Positions 6,952 through 38,113 of a stretch of DNA of 44,969 nucleotides are shown here, piece by piece. Source of the stretch: an uncultured Eubacteriales bacterium (GTDB taxonomy: Bacteria; Bacillota; Clostridia; Christensenellales; CAG-917); the NCBI GenBank assembly GCA_900544575.1, contig UQVO01000012.1:1-44969 (forward strand), written 5' to 3'. Both the position numbers and the translations under genes were made by a program. The notes under the pieces are model-generated. The model saw only the letters and a program-made list of their open reading frames with translations. It had not been told where the DNA came from and did no database searches. The first letter of the stretch is position 1. Each line of letters begins with the position of its first letter.

Positions 6952-6982
6952 CCCCGCCGAAACATTTTCGGCGGGGCTTTTT
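6952..6982 (+). terminator. intrinsic terminator of the SPFH/RHH unit
   Basis: A perfect 11-bp stem, CCCCGCCGAAA / TTTCGGCGGGG, with a three-base loop, followed by CTTTTT. Confidence 0.9.
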
Positions 6983-7060
6983 GATTAAGCCGATACCTCA
7001 GAAACGGTGCGGGACGAAAACTACAAAGATGAATTAAACGCGCACTTATTCTGAGTGCAC

Positions 7061-7197
7061 GCGCCGCTCAGCCAAGCGTTCACAGGCGGTGCAACCGCCG
7101 CTTGAACGCCGCGGCGCGCTCTGCGACCTCGCGAGCTTGATGAGTAATTAAACAGACACGGGCGTAGTGCGAGGCGAGTCGCCTTCCTCGCCCCGTG
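7061..7197. other. hairpin-rich non-coding island between convergent genes
   Basis: The stretch from the terminator at 6982 to the one at 7452 has no believable gene. It holds two compact foldable units. The first, 7061-7117, nests GCGCCGC/GCGGCGC, GCGTTCA/TGAACGC and GGCGGT/ACCGCC around a GCA loop. The second, 7157-7197, pairs CACGGG/CCCGTG and GCGAGG/CCTCGC with a six-base bulge. No promoter is obvious. It could be a structured RNA, the remnant of a mobile element, or a composite of palindromic repeats. Confidence 0.5.
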
Positions 7198-7354
7198 AGC
7201 GACGTTTAGTGAGTGCCGTCATCCGCTCGGTTATGTGAGTGCGAGAAACAAACTCTCAATAGGAATGTAACGTAAGTCCCGCATTTTGGGAGGTGTGCAC
7301 TTTTTCCGAACGGGGGAGGAATACCCGAAGGGAAGGAGGGGGTTCAACACTCCA

Positions 7355-7394
7355 ACGGTTGCGGGGGAAACCCGCAGGAAGGGGGTTCAATATT
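7355..7394. repeat. 40-bp dispersed intergenic repeat, copy 2, within a repeat cluster
   Basis: Identical over 40 bp to 15-54. Around it lie degenerate partial copies: GGAGGGGGTTCAACACT at about 7335-7351 resembles the end of the unit, and GGGGGCACAATATTCCCCTGT at about 7411-7431 repeats the tail that follows copy 1. The whole cluster, about 7328-7433, reads as several diverged units joined head to tail. Confidence 0.8.
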
Positions 7395-7451
7395 TATTAT
7401 TCAAAAGAGAGGGGGCACAATATTCCCCTGTAAGTGCACGGCTTACCGGGT

Positions 7452-26394: not shown

Positions 26395-26795
26395 TTTACA
26401 AAGTCACATTGAACGGAAAAGTTTACGAAGTGGAAGTGGAGAAGGGCGAAGCCGTCATACAGGCGGAATACGAAGCCGCGCTCCCCGCGGCTGCTCCCGC
26501 CGCTCCCGTTGCGGCTCCCGCACCCGTGCAGGCACAGGCTCCCGCCGCTCCCGCGGCAAGCGCGCCCGCGGCTTCCGCCGGCGCCGGCACCGTGCTTTCT
26601 CCGCTGCCCGGCAACATAAACGAGATACGTTTCTCCGCAGGACAGACCGTGAAGGCGGGCGACGTCGTCATCATCCTCGAAGCCATGAAGATGGAAAACG
26701 AGATTGTCGCGCCCAAGGCGGGCACGCTCTCCAAAATACACGTTCAGAAAGGCGCCGTCGTCAATACGGGCGACCCCCTCTTCGACGTAGATTAA
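26391..26795 (+). CDS. biotin carboxyl carrier subunit
   Basis: A 134-residue carrier with a short N-terminal domain (MIYKVTLNGKVYEVEVEKG), an Ala/Pro-rich flexible linker from about residue 28 to 62, and a C-terminal biotinyl domain containing EAMKM with the biotin-accepting lysine K100. It shuttles the carboxyl group from the alpha to the beta subunit. Methylmalonyl-CoA and glutaconyl-CoA decarboxylases also use separate carriers of this form. The birA gene two positions downstream can supply the ligase. Confidence 0.92.
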   Translation: MIYKVTLNGKVYEVEVEKGEAVIQAEYEAALPAAAPAAPVAAPAPVQAQAPAAPAASAPAASAGAGTVLSPLPGNINEIRFSAGQTVKAGDVVIILEAMKMENEIVAPKAGTLSKIHVQKGAVVNTGDPLFDVD

Positions 26796-26807
26796 AGGAG
26801 GAAGCGC

Positions 26808-28031
26808 ATGAACTTCGTATCGCAGATTATCGGTGCGACGGGAAGTAACGTGGATTACGGCGATACTTTCGCCGGGCTTTGGGAATCCACGGGCTTTTTC
26901 AATATGCAGTGGGGCAATGTGGTGATGATTATCATTGCCTGCTTCTTCCTATTCCTCGCCATCAAATTCAAATTCGAGCCGCTGCTCCTCGTCGGGATTG
27001 CGTTCGGTATGCTGCTCAGCAACATCCCCGGTCCCGTTTCGGACTGGATTTATCATCCCGACCTCTGGGTGTCAAGCACGACGGTCGATTACGGCGAAGT
27101 GCTCCAGACGGGCGGGCTCATCGACATCCTCTACATCGGCGTCAAGACCAGCGTATACCCCTGCCTCATCTTCCTCGGTGTGGGCGCAATGACCGACTTC
27201 GAACCGCTGCTTTCCAACCCCAAGTCCCTAATCCTCGGCGCGGCGGCGCAGTTCGGCATTTACGTCGCATTCTTCCTTGCGGTCTGCTTCGGCTTCTCAG
27301 GCGAAGAGGCGGCTTCGATAGGTATCGTCGGCGGCGCGGACGGCCCCACCGCAATCTGGCTCACAAAGGCGCTTGCCCCGCATCTGCTCGCGGCGATTGC
27401 CATTGCGGCGTATTCCTATATGGCGCTCATCCCCGTCATACAGCCCCCCATTATGCGGCTTATGACCACGAAGAAGGAACGCGCCATCGTGATGAAACCC
27501 ACGCGTACGGTCAAGAAATCCGAAAAGATACTTTTCCCCATCGTCATCATCGTCGCGACCTGCCTGTTCCTGCCCTCCGTCGCGCCTTTGCTCGGCTGCC
27601 TGATGCTCGGCAACCTGCTGCGTGAGTGCGGCGTGACGGCGCGCCTCAGCGACACCGCGCAGAATGCGCTGATGAACATCGTCACCATCTGCCTCAGCGT
27701 GTCCGTCGGCGCGACCGCGCATTTCAGCACATTCCTCACCACGCAGACGTTGCTCATCGTCGTGCTCGGACTTGTCGCGTTTGCGTTCGCAACCGTCGGC
27801 GGTCTCGGCATCGGCAAGATTATGTGCTGGCTCTCCAAGGGCAAAATCAATCCTCTCATTGGCTCGGCGGGCGTCTCCGCAGTGCCTATGGCGGCGAGAG
27901 TTTCCAACCTCGAAGGGCTCAGGGCGAAACCGGGGAACTATCTGCTTATGCACGCTATGGGCCCGAACGTCGCGGGCGTCATCGGCTCCGCGGTCGCCGC
28001 AGGCTTCTTTATGGCGGTGTTCGGCGGTTGA
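26808..28031 (+). CDS. oadB: sodium ion-translocating decarboxylase beta subunit
   Basis: A 407-residue, very hydrophobic protein with about nine membrane segments, releasing CO2 from carboxybiotin and pumping Na+ outward. The family hallmark GGADGPTAIW (about residues 176-185) is intact, as is the GSAGVSAVPMAAR block near residue 350 and NYLLMHAMGPNVAGVIGSA at the end. AAAGGAGGAAGC lies before the ATG. The stop TGATG shares a base with the birA start, and a terminator-shaped hairpin follows about 30 bases later inside birA. Confidence 0.95.
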   Translation: MNFVSQIIGATGSNVDYGDTFAGLWESTGFFNMQWGNVVMIIIACFFLFLAIKFKFEPLLLVGIAFGMLLSNIPGPVSDWIYHPDLWVSSTTVDYGEVLQTGGLIDILYIGVKTSVYPCLIFLGVGAMTDFEPLLSNPKSLILGAAAQFGIYVAFFLAVCFGFSGEEAASIGIVGGADGPTAIWLTKALAPHLLAAIAIAAYSYMALIPVIQPPIMRLMTTKKERAIVMKPTRTVKKSEKILFPIVIIVATCLFLPSVAPLLGCLMLGNLLRECGVTARLSDTAQNALMNIVTICLSVSVGATAHFSTFLTTQTLLIVVLGLVAFAFATVGGLGIGKIMCWLSKGKINPLIGSAGVSAVPMAARVSNLEGLRAKPGNYLLMHAMGPNVAGVIGSAVAAGFFMAVFGG

Positions 28032-35327: not shown

Positions 35328-36443
35328 ATGAAAAACAACGCACTCGGCATTCTGTTTGCGTCCGACGAAGACAGCCATCTCAACGACCTGACCATACACC
35401 GCACGACGGCGAGTCTGCCCTATGCCGGGAGATACCGCCTGATAGACTTCGTGCTCTCCAATATGGTGCACGCCAACATCACGAAAATCGGCATCATCAC
35501 GCGCAACAACTACAACAGCCTTATGGATCACATCAGACAGGGGCGCGACTGGGACCTCAACCGCAAGAACAGCGGCATTTCCGTCTATCCTCCCTTTGTC
35601 TTCAATGCGGCACACGAGGTGTACAAGGGCAAGATAGAAGCGCTGTATATGCTGCGCGGATTTATGCTGAAATCCTCCGAAGACTATGTCGTCATCAGCA
35701 ACGCGAACATAGCCTTCAATATCGATTTCGAGGAAGTGGAAAAGTTCCACGTCGAGCGCGGCGCGGACATCACGATGCTCACTTATTCCACGGAGGACGT
35801 CACCCCGCGCAAGCTCGTCGTCACCGCGGACAAGAACAAGAGGATTAAGGATTTGCGCTATCCCGTTTCCACGGACACGGGCAAACAGCTGTGCAACCTC
35901 AACATCTATTACGTCAAGAAGGATTTGCTCATCTCCCTCATCGACAACGCGTACGCGCACGGCGCATACGATTTCGAGAAGGACATCCTGCGCGCCAGCC
36001 TGGACGAACTTTACGTGATGAGCTACGAAGTGGACAACTACGTCGCGGTCATCGACCGCATCCCGACCTACTTCAAGCGCAGTATGGACCTGCTCAATCC
36101 CGAGGTGAGGGAAGACCTGTTCTACAATCATTCCACAATACTCACCAAGGTCAAGGACAGCGTCCCGACGAAGTATAAAGAGGGCGCCAACGTGCACAAT
36201 TCCATTATCGCGGACGGCTGCGAAATCAACGGCACGGTGGAAAACAGCATCCTGTTCAGAAGCGTAAGGGTGGGCAAAGGCGCGGTCATACGCAACTCCA
36301 TCATTATGGAAAACGGCATAGTGATGGAAAACGCGCAGCTGGATTACGTCATCACGGACAAGTCCTGCATCATACAATCGGGAAGAAGGCTTGCGGGTTA
36401 CGAAAGCTACCCGATGGTGGTGGTGAAAAACAAAATAATCTGA
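35328..36443 (+). CDS. glgD: GlgD, non-catalytic-type ADP-glucose pyrophosphorylase subunit
   Basis: A 371-residue paralogue of GlgC. The N-terminal loop that in GlgC is GGQGTRLG reads FASDEDSHLND here, so the ATP-binding residues are lost, as is typical of GlgD; SLPYAGRYRLIDFVLSN and the C-terminal beta-helix are kept. In Bacillus and Lactobacillus-type systems GlgD raises the activity of GlgC in a mixed tetramer. AAGGAGGGG lies before the ATG. It is followed by 248 bp of hairpin repeats and not directly by glgA. Confidence 0.95.
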   Translation: MKNNALGILFASDEDSHLNDLTIHRTTASLPYAGRYRLIDFVLSNMVHANITKIGIITRNNYNSLMDHIRQGRDWDLNRKNSGISVYPPFVFNAAHEVYKGKIEALYMLRGFMLKSSEDYVVISNANIAFNIDFEEVEKFHVERGADITMLTYSTEDVTPRKLVVTADKNKRIKDLRYPVSTDTGKQLCNLNIYYVKKDLLISLIDNAYAHGAYDFEKDILRASLDELYVMSYEVDNYVAVIDRIPTYFKRSMDLLNPEVREDLFYNHSTILTKVKDSVPTKYKEGANVHNSIIADGCEINGTVENSILFRSVRVGKGAVIRNSIIMENGIVMENAQLDYVITDKSCIIQSGRRLAGYESYPMVVVKNKII

Positions 36444-36450
36444 CCCTTTC

Positions 36451-36674
36451 GGGGCCCCCGCCGAAAGGATGAAATCGTTTCGGTGGGGTATAATTCCGGG
36501 GCCCCCGCAGAAAAATCTTTGATTTTTATGTGGGGCTAAAAATCGGGACCCCGTCAAGAAATCTCTGATTTTTTGATGGGGCATAAACTGGGGCCCCCGT
36601 CAAACGGGAGAAGCCCGTTTTACGGGGTATAAACTCGGGGCCCCCATTAAATCACCGCAGGCGATTTAATGGGG
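36451..36674 (+). repeat. array of five tandem variable-stem hairpins between glgD and glgA
   Basis: Five hairpins start at 36456, 36503, 36549, 36595 and 36642, a period of 46-47 bp. Hairpins 1-5 span 36456-36488, 36503-36535, 36549-36581, 36595-36627 and 36642-36674, each 33 bases. All begin with CCCC and end with GGGG, and the spacers resemble one another (TATAATTCCGGGGC, CTAAAAATCGGGA, CATAAACTGGGGC, TATAAACTCGGGGC). The inner stems differ: GCCGAAA, GCAGAAAAATC, GTCAAGAAATC, GTCAAACGGG and ATTAAATC, each pairing with its own right arm apart from G-U pairs and single mismatches. Hairpin 5 ends six bases before the AAAGGAGG of glgA. No gene lies here and none of the hairpins has a T run after it. 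Confidence 0.92.
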
Positions 36675-36691
36675 TAATAAAAGGAGGTCGT

Positions 36692-38113
36692 ATGAAAATC
36701 TTATTCGTAGCGTCGGAAGCGGCTCCGTTTGCGAGAACGGGAGGTCTGGGCGACGTGGCGGGCGCGCTGCCGAAAGCGTTCAAAAAGCTCGGTCACGACG
36801 CGAGAGTCATTCTTCCTTACTACAAGGAGGAAATCAAGGATTCTTTCAAAAGCAGTATGCGTTTTGTCGGTTCGACGTTCGTGGACCTCAGCTGGCGCAG
36901 GCAATATGCGGGGGTTTACGAAGCGGTTTACGACGGAATAACCTATTATTTCGTCGACAACGAGTTTTATTTCAAGCGCAGGGGGCTGTACGGGCACTTT
37001 GACGACGGCGAGCGTTTCGCGTATTTCGCGAAGGCTGTCCCCGAAGTGCTTCCGCTCATCGGCTTCTTCCCCGACGTGCTGCACTGCAACGACTGGCAGA
37101 CCGCGCTCACGCCCGTTTATCTCGACGTGTATTACCGCTTTTCGGACGAATACCGCAACATCAAGACGGTGTTCACCATCCACAACATCGAGTTCCAGGG
37201 CAAGTACGGCACGGAGCTGCTCGCAGACGTTATGGGACTGCCCGAATGGGCGCACTCGCTCGTGCTCAACGACGGCTGCGTGAACTATATGAAGGGCGGC
37301 ATAGAGTCCGCCGCGGCGGTCACCACCGTGAGTGAAACCTACGCGACCGAAATCCTCGACCCATTCTATTCCTACGGGCTGGACGGCATACTTTCCGAGC
37401 GCAGATACAAGCTGCACGGGGTGATAAACGGCATCGACACCGCCGTGTACGACCCCGCGAAAGACGACGCGCTCTTCCAGAACTACACGCTCCGCAGCAT
37501 CGGCAAAAAGAAGCTCAACAAAAAGGGGCTGTGCGAGATGATAGACCTCGCATACGACGAAAACCGTCCCCTCATCGCGATGGTGACGCGGCTTACGGAG
37601 CAGAAGGGTATGGACCTCGTCGCCGCGGTGGTGGACGAAATTATGCGCGCGGACGTGCAGATGGTCGTGCTGGGAACGGGCGACTGGAAGTACGAGAATA
37701 TGATAAAGCGCGTGCAGGAACAGTATCCCGCAAAATTCCGCGCCATACTGCAATTTTCCAGCGACATCGCAAGCAAACTTTACGGGGCGGCGGACATATT
37801 CCTCATGCCGTCCAAGTTCGAGCCCTGCGGGCTGAGCCAGATGATAGCGATGCGCTACGGCACCGTGCCCGTCGTGCGCGAAACGGGCGGGCTGAAAGAC
37901 ACCGTCGAGCCTTACAACCCCGTGGAGAAAACGGGTGTGGGCTTCACGTTCAAGACGTATAATTCGTATGATATGCTGGACGCCGTGTGGCGCGCTTACG
38001 GCACTTTCTTCGACAAGGAGAACTGGAAGGCGGTGGTGTCCAACGGTATGAAAAAGGACTTCGGTTGGGAAGTGTCGGCGAAGAAGTATCTCGACATCTA
38101 CAACGGCATCTGA
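36692..38113 (+). CDS. glgA: glycogen synthase
   Basis: GT5 glycosyltransferase extending alpha-1,4-glucan from ADP-glucose. The 473-residue protein begins KILFVASEAAPFARTGGLGDV, where the ADP-glucose loop is usually KTGGL and reads RTGGL here. It also has HCNDWQTAL, the TTVSETYA block, VTRLTEQKGMDL near residue 300, the FEPCGLSQMIAMRYGT acceptor/nucleotide block near 375 and TGGLKDTV. The ribosome site AAAGGAGG is the first free sequence after hairpin 5 of the repeat array. Two hairpins separate the gene from glgP. Confidence 0.96.
   Translation: MKILFVASEAAPFARTGGLGDVAGALPKAFKKLGHDARVILPYYKEEIKDSFKSSMRFVGSTFVDLSWRRQYAGVYEAVYDGITYYFVDNEFYFKRRGLYGHFDDGERFAYFAKAVPEVLPLIGFFPDVLHCNDWQTALTPVYLDVYYRFSDEYRNIKTVFTIHNIEFQGKYGTELLADVMGLPEWAHSLVLNDGCVNYMKGGIESAAAVTTVSETYATEILDPFYSYGLDGILSERRYKLHGVINGIDTAVYDPAKDDALFQNYTLRSIGKKKLNKKGLCEMIDLAYDENRPLIAMVTRLTEQKGMDLVAAVVDEIMRADVQMVVLGTGDWKYENMIKRVQEQYPAKFRAILQFSSDIASKLYGAADIFLMPSKFEPCGLSQMIAMRYGTVPVVRETGGLKDTVEPYNPVEKTGVGFTFKTYNSYDMLDAVWRAYGTFFDKENWKAVVSNGMKKDFGWEVSAKKYLDIYNGI

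Follow-up and report, generated by a model that had tools for sequence, protein, structure and literature searches.

A five-hairpin array between glgD and glgA in an uncultured clostridial genome is probably a cluster of dispersed REP-like palindromes with a GGGG tag

Introduction

Palindromic repeats that lie between cistrons can protect the upstream mRNA, as work in E. coli has found, and elements of the IS200/IS605 group insert without target duplication. For this group a preference for the lagging-strand template is documented in the available part of PMC6006769. REP-like mobile palindromes have been reported mostly from Proteobacteria, and the CGTC REPs have been reported without a dedicated transposase, as far as the accessible text of PMC3733652 goes. 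A TnpA-REP substrate with its tag changed to GTGG was cleavable at CC (PMC8266576, in the portion available), so that TnpA-REP chemistry does not speak against a G-rich tag. Our comparison with known kinds of element also drew on the available portion of PMC8040213.

Here we analyse a stretch of 44,969 nucleotides from an uncultured Eubacteriales bacterium (contig UQVO01000012.1 of assembly GCA_900544575.1; hereafter the window), which carries a row of genes comprising glgB, glgC, glgD, glgA and a glycogen phosphorylase gene. An array of five hairpins fills the gap from the glgD stop (36443) to the glgA start (36692). The hairpin family to which it belongs works like a REP, with a GGGG tag that is new to REPs, and it is neither a GTAG nor a CGTC REP; the original prediction that no named family fits is thus unsupported, because the behaviour is REP-like despite the different tag. 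We assign a probability of about 0.7 to the reading of the array as a local cluster, with its units head to tail, of a mobile REP-like palindrome that is non-coding and dispersed.

Results

The array and its units

All five hairpins are 33 nt long and closed by CCCC/GGGG, with start-to-start distances of 47, 46, 46 and 47 (Table 1), so that the sequence and a covariance model both confirm the five 33-base hairpins, the 46-47 bp period and the CCCC/GGGG clamps described earlier. A GGGGY tag, which is degenerate in unit 3, stands before each hairpin at a distance of one base from its foot; this tag, which the earlier reader did not recognise, is the key to the hairpin family. The 13-14 base spacer of the original prediction has the right length but a different composition, being an AT-rich linker of 8-9 nt followed by the GGGGY tag of the next unit. 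That the stems differ and yet stay complementary holds for all five units, with 0-2 mismatches per 15 pairs counted (one each in units 1, 2 and 5, two in unit 4 and none in unit 3). The pattern GGGGCCCCC-N(15-35)-GGGG has four matches in the window, all within the array, versus 0.04 expected, and the region 36430-36720 folds at -128.5 kcal/mol versus a shuffle mean of -94.0 (sd 5.7; z -6.1), with 0 of 200 shuffles folding as well. All five units are recovered by the covariance model, of which they are part by construction, at E values from 2.4e-15 to 2.2e-11.

Table 1. Positions of the array units and the adjoining genes in the window
Feature	Position	Strand	Evidence
glgD, gene upstream of array	35328..36443	+	NCBIfam TIGR02092 glgD, E 1.3e-103
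Unit 1 tag, GGGGC	36451..36455	+	sequence
Hairpin 1	36456..36488	+	model R1, E 2.2e-13
Linker 1, TATAATTCC	36489..36497	+	sequence
Unit 2 tag, GGGGC	36498..36502	+	sequence
Hairpin 2	36503..36535	+	covariance model, E 2.4e-15
Linker 2	36536..36543	+	sequence
Unit 3 tag, degenerate CGGGA	36544..36548	+	sequence
Hairpin 3, tip AATCTCTGATT	36549..36581	+	covariance model, E 6.4e-14
Linker 3, CATAAACT	36582..36589	+	sequence
Unit 4 tag, GGGGC	36590..36594	+	sequence
Hairpin 4	36595..36627	+	covariance model, E 2.2e-11
Linker 4, TATAAACTC	36628..36636	+	sequence
Unit 5 tag, GGGGC	36637..36641	+	sequence
Hairpin 5	36642..36674	+	covariance model, E 3.7e-12
Right end of last unit, TAAT	36675..36678	+	boundary inferred from YAAA ends of other insertions
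glgA Shine-Dalgarno region, AAAAGGAGG	36679..36687	+	sequence; predicted mostly unpaired
glgA, gene downstream of array	36692..38113	+	NCBIfam NF001898 GlgA, E 2.3e-191

The outer arms of hairpin 1 match the 26-nt subtype GCCGAAA/TTTCGGT and its tip differs, the tip AATCTTTGATT of hairpin 2 is common to units of two related genomes (G001 and G003), and the tip CCGCAGG of hairpin 5 is as in several subtypes of a third (G009). Hairpin 4 is without a close relative, its nearest stem among the elements compared standing at an edit distance of 10. For units 1-5 the nearest relative in another genome lies at an edit distance of 7, 4, 5, 10 and 6 and the nearest within the array at 12, 6, 6, 12 and 13, a comparison in which the outside pool is much larger than the five-unit array. 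The original prediction had derived the array from one duplicated unit changed in situ; that the nearest relatives of all five units are in other genomes suggests, and no more than suggests, that in situ divergence of one duplicated window unit is not the main story.

Alignment A2 holds 40 units (35 from relatives and five from the window), and the GGGGY tag precedes 39 of them, the exception being unit 3 of the window. Hairpins are mostly 26, 31, 33, 34 or 35 nt long (range 25-35 nt among 179 strict elements), with several subtypes per genome, and units occur both as singletons and in head-to-tail clusters, often with mixed stem types. Same-strand clusters contain up to six consecutive strict units, inverted neighbours exist (for example in G009 C21), and eight units, seven of them near-identical, stand in a row at 26663-27029 of G001 C7. 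Unit 3 of the window, with its degenerate tag, is not a strict element and the window array counts as two clusters; the same double counting may affect other arrays that a degenerate unit interrupts.

Among 48 pairs of adjacent units, 22 differ by at least eight edits, 14 by at most three and four are identical, and arrays mix subtypes even of unequal length. The mean edit distance of adjacent pairs is 6.9 versus 8.0 for random same-genome pairs, and distances of at least eight edits make up 46% versus 59%. The presence of both mixed and near-identical neighbours therefore points to the joining of different units and tandem duplication both being at work. Linkers are 7-9 nt long in 47 of the 48 pairs and 6 nt in one; they start with T or C in all 48, end with C in 45 and with TC in 40, as joined unit ends would give, and the array linker looks like a right end joined to a left end.

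Elements with a GGGGA tag in G001, G003 and G009 represent a near-symmetric variant, GGGGACCCC...GGGGAGCCCC, which recurs at the same site within a larger repeat. Since their orientation is ambiguous, 27 of the 225 strict elements (GGGGA or GGGGG tags) were omitted from the strand and junction counts. Elsewhere in the window, at 6952-6979, a terminator-like hairpin (CCCCGCCGAAA-CAT-TTTCGGCGGGG) is followed by CTTTTT; its arms nearly equal those of the mobile 26-nt subtype (model R1, E 0.015), and stems may have been shared or captured between this hairpin and the mobile family.

Distribution of tagged hairpins among genomes

A GlgD search yielded 80 loci in genome contigs, and the genomes of 36 of these loci were compared; all are draft MAGs, the window's own genome not being among them. 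Matches to GGGGNCCCC-N(18-32)-GGGG were present in 28 of the 36, with up to 231 per genome, pattern matches outnumbering elements because overlapping matches are counted. A reversed-pattern control gave 0-2 matches per genome, and genomes with 1-3 matches therefore say little. The fetched stretches of related genomes contain 225 strict elements. One distant MAG labelled Christensenella (G033, locus L032) has stem subtypes of its own, with 40 matches and no Y1 match.

Across the order, at least one pattern match was seen in 173 of 396 genomes, the control also matching in many. Reading by hand singled out 40 genomes as copy-rich (10 or more matches, and three times as many as in the control), not each of which need carry the tagged hairpin family. 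A class-wide covariance model search that scored 22 candidates per genome found units in at least 16 of 291 genomes and six or more copies in at least four of the 16, these counts being lower bounds. The check by covariance model and copy count in relatives, as originally proposed, thus brought out related units at other loci and in other species. The region 36430-36700 had no blastn match at E 0.01 among 50,697 phage and 72,556 plasmid records, and a phage or plasmid origin of the array was rejected on this result. No description of the hairpin family was found in the literature searched (by the string GGGGTCCCC and for Clostridia, Christensenellales and Firmicutes repeats), which largely excluded subscription papers.

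Element-free sites and the ends of the unit

Many elements lie inside other repeat families, and element-free copies of such repeats exist. By a crude similarity cut, 57 of the 142 clusters with full flanks (five of 147 being without) have an element-free counterpart, in 38 contexts, 13 of which were set aside as abutting another unit, matching poorly or having the opposite sign. The 25 clean contexts carry 3-8 extra nt outside the core, seven of them with one best split, and none has a full-length direct repeat indicative of target duplication. The clearest junction, G003_L239:16626, reads CTCTCCCC[ATC-GGGGY-hairpin-CAAA]GCGAGCG against CTCTCCCCGCGAGCG, with 24 of 24 flank bases. The insertion unit is about ATC-GGGGY-hairpin-YAAA, without full target duplication, as defined from empty sites that are paralogous repeat copies, where loss is not separable from gain and movement itself is not observed.

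By eye, an apparently empty other-strand copy of a long palindromic repeat lies at about 7060-7120 of the window, and this repeat carries a tagged hairpin in G009. G-rich repeats of the GGGGGTTCAATATTCCCC type at 1-60 and 7300-7430 likewise resemble, by eye, hosts of the element in G001 and G003.

Genomic location and strand

Gene context was taken from a codon-model gene finder; a naive context based on ORFs was discarded, as it placed 87 of 179 elements under spurious ORFs, and with an earlier gene model two of the 179 lay inside an ORF. None of the 147 clusters overlaps a predicted gene. The 108 clusters with both neighbours comprise 61 between codirectional, 38 between convergent and nine between divergent genes, the intergenic bases available being 102.8, 54.7 and 39.2 kb, respectively, in an overlapping set of stretches. 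Nine of 108 against the 39.2 kb available indicates that divergent regions are avoided. Relative to neighbouring genes, 35 clusters are sense and 26 antisense.

GC skew stood in for replication direction, the G-rich strand being taken as the lagging-strand template, and stretches with 8 kb or less outside elements were omitted from the strand counts. The G-rich strand carries 92 of the 147 clusters. When similar flanks are merged, the window's clade has 36 of 46 contexts on this strand (p 1.6e-4, the window's array entering as two contexts), including 10 of 11 between convergent genes; the bias is absent in other clades (14 of 28). Five of six further G001 stretches agree with it, two of the six being weak in skew. 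Between codirectional genes of the window's clade the elements are mostly sense (15 to 5 antisense), so that replication and transcription are not separated there, and where genes oppose the skew the elements follow it in two of four. The convergent contexts are the best strand evidence, though few.

Conservation of the fold

The original prediction looked to compensatory changes, which in alignment A2 amount to 115 two-sided change cells versus 37 after shuffling and at most 37 after sliding; together with 93.0% paired cells (74.5% shuffled) and a covariation score of 0.509 (0.163 shuffled), this reveals a conserved fold. The number of pairs changed on both sides, 10 versus 8.4 shuffled, is not beyond chance, 65 of 500 shuffles reaching 10. 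On the tagged strand of 175 elements, GT and TG pairs number 246 versus 38 AC and CA pairs (115 versus 24 without pair 5), an excess that is inflated since the fold filter used for detection accepts G-T and rejects A-C. The excess of G-T over A-C argues for folding by one strand, and suggests this to be the tagged strand.

Among 112 comparisons of units differing at one stem pair, which are pairwise and not independent events, 84 differences are one-sided and 28 two-sided, and 52 of the 84 set G-T against Watson-Crick. Stepwise compensation fits this excess of one-sided differences, and the stems appear to change step by step while being selected for the ability to fold.

The glgD-glgA gap in relatives and the glgA leader region

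On the GlgD tree the window lies closest to six MAGs from a Candidatus Limadaptatus-like clade, with about 79-86% DNA identity in the longer local matches. Their glgD-to-glgA distances (L001-L004, L027 and L041) are 33-136 nt, and no unit was found in these six gaps by sequence or by covariance model at E up to 0.1. Downstream of glgD in the more distant L009, L010, L014 and L011 (in the last of which glgA was not located) there are family members with other stems. The array is therefore not a conserved leader; the same five stems as a leader in relatives, which the original prediction had named as a finding that would tell against it, were looked for and are absent in the six close relatives. 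The window's lineage probably acquired the glgD-glgA cluster once it had diverged from the relatives sampled.

The last hairpin ends five bases before AAAGGAGG, which is predicted to be mostly open. The predicted unpaired probability is 0.68-0.97 over the glgA Shine-Dalgarno at 36679-36687, and 0.11-0.30 at the start codon, which would be mostly paired. At gathering score an Rfam search of the window returned only a tRNA elsewhere and nothing in the array, where the best sub-threshold match was psaA (19.3 bits versus 50). No intrinsic terminator was found on the + strand of 36300-36800, and two weak terminator-like sites are on the - strand versus 1.0 expected. Identity as a riboswitch or leader was rejected on the Rfam result and the absence in close relatives, and identity as a terminator because 36300-36800 has no + strand GC-rich hairpin with a T run.

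Candidate enzymes

Y1_Tnp (PF01797) is present in 10 of the 36 genomes. Each of the six genomes analysed from the window's clade has an open frame of RAYT length (254-356 aa; G004 carries Y1 fragments besides) and 42-119 pattern matches, whereas four sister genomes without a Y1 gene have 0-9; the RAYT and copy richness coincide on a single tree branch, which is close to one observation. A RAYT-length Y1 gene is also found in G008, outside this clade. Three RAYT-like proteins of the clade score 79.1, 65.9 and 70.9 bits against REP_Tyr_transpos, for which the cut-off is 80. No Y1_Tnp match was found at E 1e-3 in G017 (231 matches) or G012 (118), G017 having 0 first-look candidates. Order-wide, with copy-rich genomes and Y1 carriers both tallied by hand, a Y1 match occurs in 21 of 40 copy-rich versus 116 of 356 other genomes (p 0.014, uncorrected for kinship), many matches being ordinary IS200-length genes, and 19 of the 40 copy-rich genomes have none.

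Inspection of 14 Y1-gene loci (about 1.5 kb each side where the contig allows) revealed one unit, which lies at 2936-2977 of L119 and follows the RAYT-like gene of G002 by about 0.7 kb. Palindromes starting with GGGGACG adjoin RAYT genes on both sides in L115, L118 and L120 and upstream only in L119, and there are several copies around L117. Across L115 and L117-L120 these palindromes have a near-constant core, with inner and outer words that vary by genome, and represent a larger-scale case of the theme of constant clamp and variable stem.

RVT_1 is found in six of the 36 genomes, five of which are copy-rich (G012, G014, G017, G018 and G002; p 0.18), and G012, G014 and G017 have no Y1 match; this excess, though not significant, may hint at a different mover. 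A reverse transcriptase was rejected as the general mover, RVT_1 being missing from 14 of 19 copy-rich genomes; RAYT was rejected in the same role, despite the clade link, since the most copy-rich genome (G017) is without it.

Discussion

The original suggestion of a self-copying palindromic element is the best reading, given multiple copies, dispersal and element-free counterparts. The mobile unit would be about 45 nt long and consist of a few bases ending in C (for example ATC), the GGGGY tag, a CCCC-stem-GGGG hairpin and a tail such as YAAA. We infer a single-strand-specific enzyme that would read the tag, the clamp and the fold and not the letters of the stem, and that would act on DNA exposed at replication, inserting the unit between genes and also beside existing copies; such insertion, together with ordinary tandem duplication, would give rise to arrays. 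If only copies that fold stay mobile, stems would drift stepwise, often via G-T, with complementarity kept. Any effect of the array on mRNA would be a by-product of insertion.

Several other accounts of the array were weighed against this reading. The proposal of a cis-acting RNA element specific to glgA (riboswitch, attenuator or leader) can point to an intercistronic, sense array that ends just before the Shine-Dalgarno, and to the predicted pairing of the start codon, but the gap of the six close relatives holds no unit, such units also occur between many other genes, in sense (35 clusters) as well as antisense (26) orientation, Rfam gave no match in the array at gathering score, no terminator-like site is on the + strand and the Shine-Dalgarno is predicted to be open, all of which make the proposal most improbable. 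A REP-like insert might have been retained since it stabilises the upstream glgD mRNA or sets the glgD/glgA ratio, and five strong sense hairpins after the glgD stop codon would suit this role; such effects on stability or ratio would be plausible from REP biology, but sampled close relatives manage without the array and a REP-like origin by itself accounts for its presence and location, so that we regard retention for this purpose as unlikely. Variable-stem sites for site-specific recombination, whether attC-like, as the original prediction had considered, or of another type, are scarcely credible: hairpins that fold on one strand, constant at the ends and varying between them, would fit, but neither strand of 36444-36691 has attC core boxes (GTTRRRY, RYYYAAC), on which ground attC identity was rejected, and the 6-9 nt linkers leave no cassette genes between units. 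The stem variety could also have arisen here, by tandem duplication of one ancestral unit followed by replication template switching that rewrote arms into new matched stems. Template switching can produce multi-base compensatory changes, according to the available text of PMC8794818, and the 28 two-sided differences among 112 are what it would leave, but the 84 one-sided differences, 52 of them G-T against Watson-Crick, the recurrence of stem subtypes across genomes and the frequent difference in subtype between neighbours all count against it. Arm copying of this kind is possible and not required, the process writing one arm from the other that had been postulated earlier is not needed, and we consider the whole scenario very improbable.

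The identity of the mover within the REP-like reading is a separate matter. A RAYT-like HUH transposase is the best candidate in the window's clade, with a likelihood that we place somewhat short of even; the L119 unit and the modest order-wide excess raise this likelihood a little and the confounded strand bias lowers it a little, leaving it unchanged on balance. We give even odds to the alternative that the same mobile family is moved by something other than a Y1 HUH (RAYT-like) enzyme, be it a different enzyme or the host's own replication or repair, with the clade RAYT serving only its own longer palindromes. This alternative draws on the copy-rich G017 and G012 and the 19 of 40 copy-rich order genomes without Y1, on the GGGGACG-type palindromes that flank the inspected RAYT genes instead, and on the single unit among 14 Y1 loci; it is opposed by the contrast in copy number between clade genomes with RAYT and their four sisters without, by the somewhat higher frequency of Y1 in copy-rich order genomes and by the G-rich-strand bias of the clade, which fits Y1 chemistry, nor does reverse transcriptase offer a general answer, with RVT_1 in six of 36 genomes.

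The cluster of REP-like palindromes proposed here makes a puzzling array intelligible as something of a familiar kind, not to be mistaken for a riboswitch. It also widens the range of REP-like palindromes to uncultured gut Clostridia, where the tag is new, the ends of the unit can be read and strand preference can be tested. Genomes that are rich in copies and lack a Y1 match raise the same question of the mover as the CGTC REPs do, and here their gene content can be compared. More tentatively, and with some doubt, the GGGG-tagged palindromes could form a third REP superfamily of single-stranded units of ~45 nt that are moved by a non-RAYT enzyme, and arrays would grow as further units insert at the joined-end linker of a copy already there. 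The mover would then read only tag, clamp and fold, leaving the stem free to diversify, and each genome would be a natural library of compatible hairpins.

For known IS200/IS605 ends and the MITEs derived from them, the structural differences are that one hairpin is present here instead of two subterminal ones, with no transposase inside; the 25 clean contexts, at paralogous sites, resemble IS200/605 elements and REPs in insertion without target-site duplication, and no constant CC site was seen at the junctions of the hairpin unit. REPINs with RAYT/TnpA-REP, as portrayed in the accessible parts of PMC3116915 and PMC8266576, share the hairpin logic, the tag by the foot and the non-autonomous nature, and tandem REP arrays occur there too, with a candidate HUH transposase in the window's clade as the counterpart here. 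Unlike REPINs, the unit appears to be a single hairpin and not an inverted doublet, and no inspected RAYT gene has the hairpin unit on both sides; likewise no RAYT gene flanked by the same repeat, as in a REPtron, was found in the 14 Y1 loci. The RAYT-like genes of the clade that lie beside long GGGGACG palindromes resemble the TIRYT/TIRtron genes in the available text of PMC3733652, and GGGGACGG fits the GGGGWSAS motif reported there at seven of eight positions by eye, but these palindromes are longer and represent a repeat family separate from the tagged hairpins.

The closest likeness is to the GTAG and CGTC REPs of Di Nocera et al. (2013) which, as the accessible text of PMC3733652 has it, are likewise short and palindromic, bear at one end a tetranucleotide that stays unpaired, and are extragenic and at high copy number, mostly between codirectional and convergent genes, with several stem types per genome and clusters. 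A REP in the sense of a 20-40 nt palindrome with many extragenic copies is matched by hairpins of 25-35 nt, with 0 of 147 clusters in genes and up to 231 matches. GTAG stands just 5' of the foot in 0 of 225 elements and CGTC in three, and GTAG just 3' in 0 of 225, CGTC having been counted on the 5' side only; the family here has the GGGG tag, one base off the hairpin. Opposite-orientation dimers are common among those REPs in the same text, whereas the clusters scored here run head to tail with a 6-9 nt linker, in hosts that are Clostridia and with unit ends that can be read from element-free sites.
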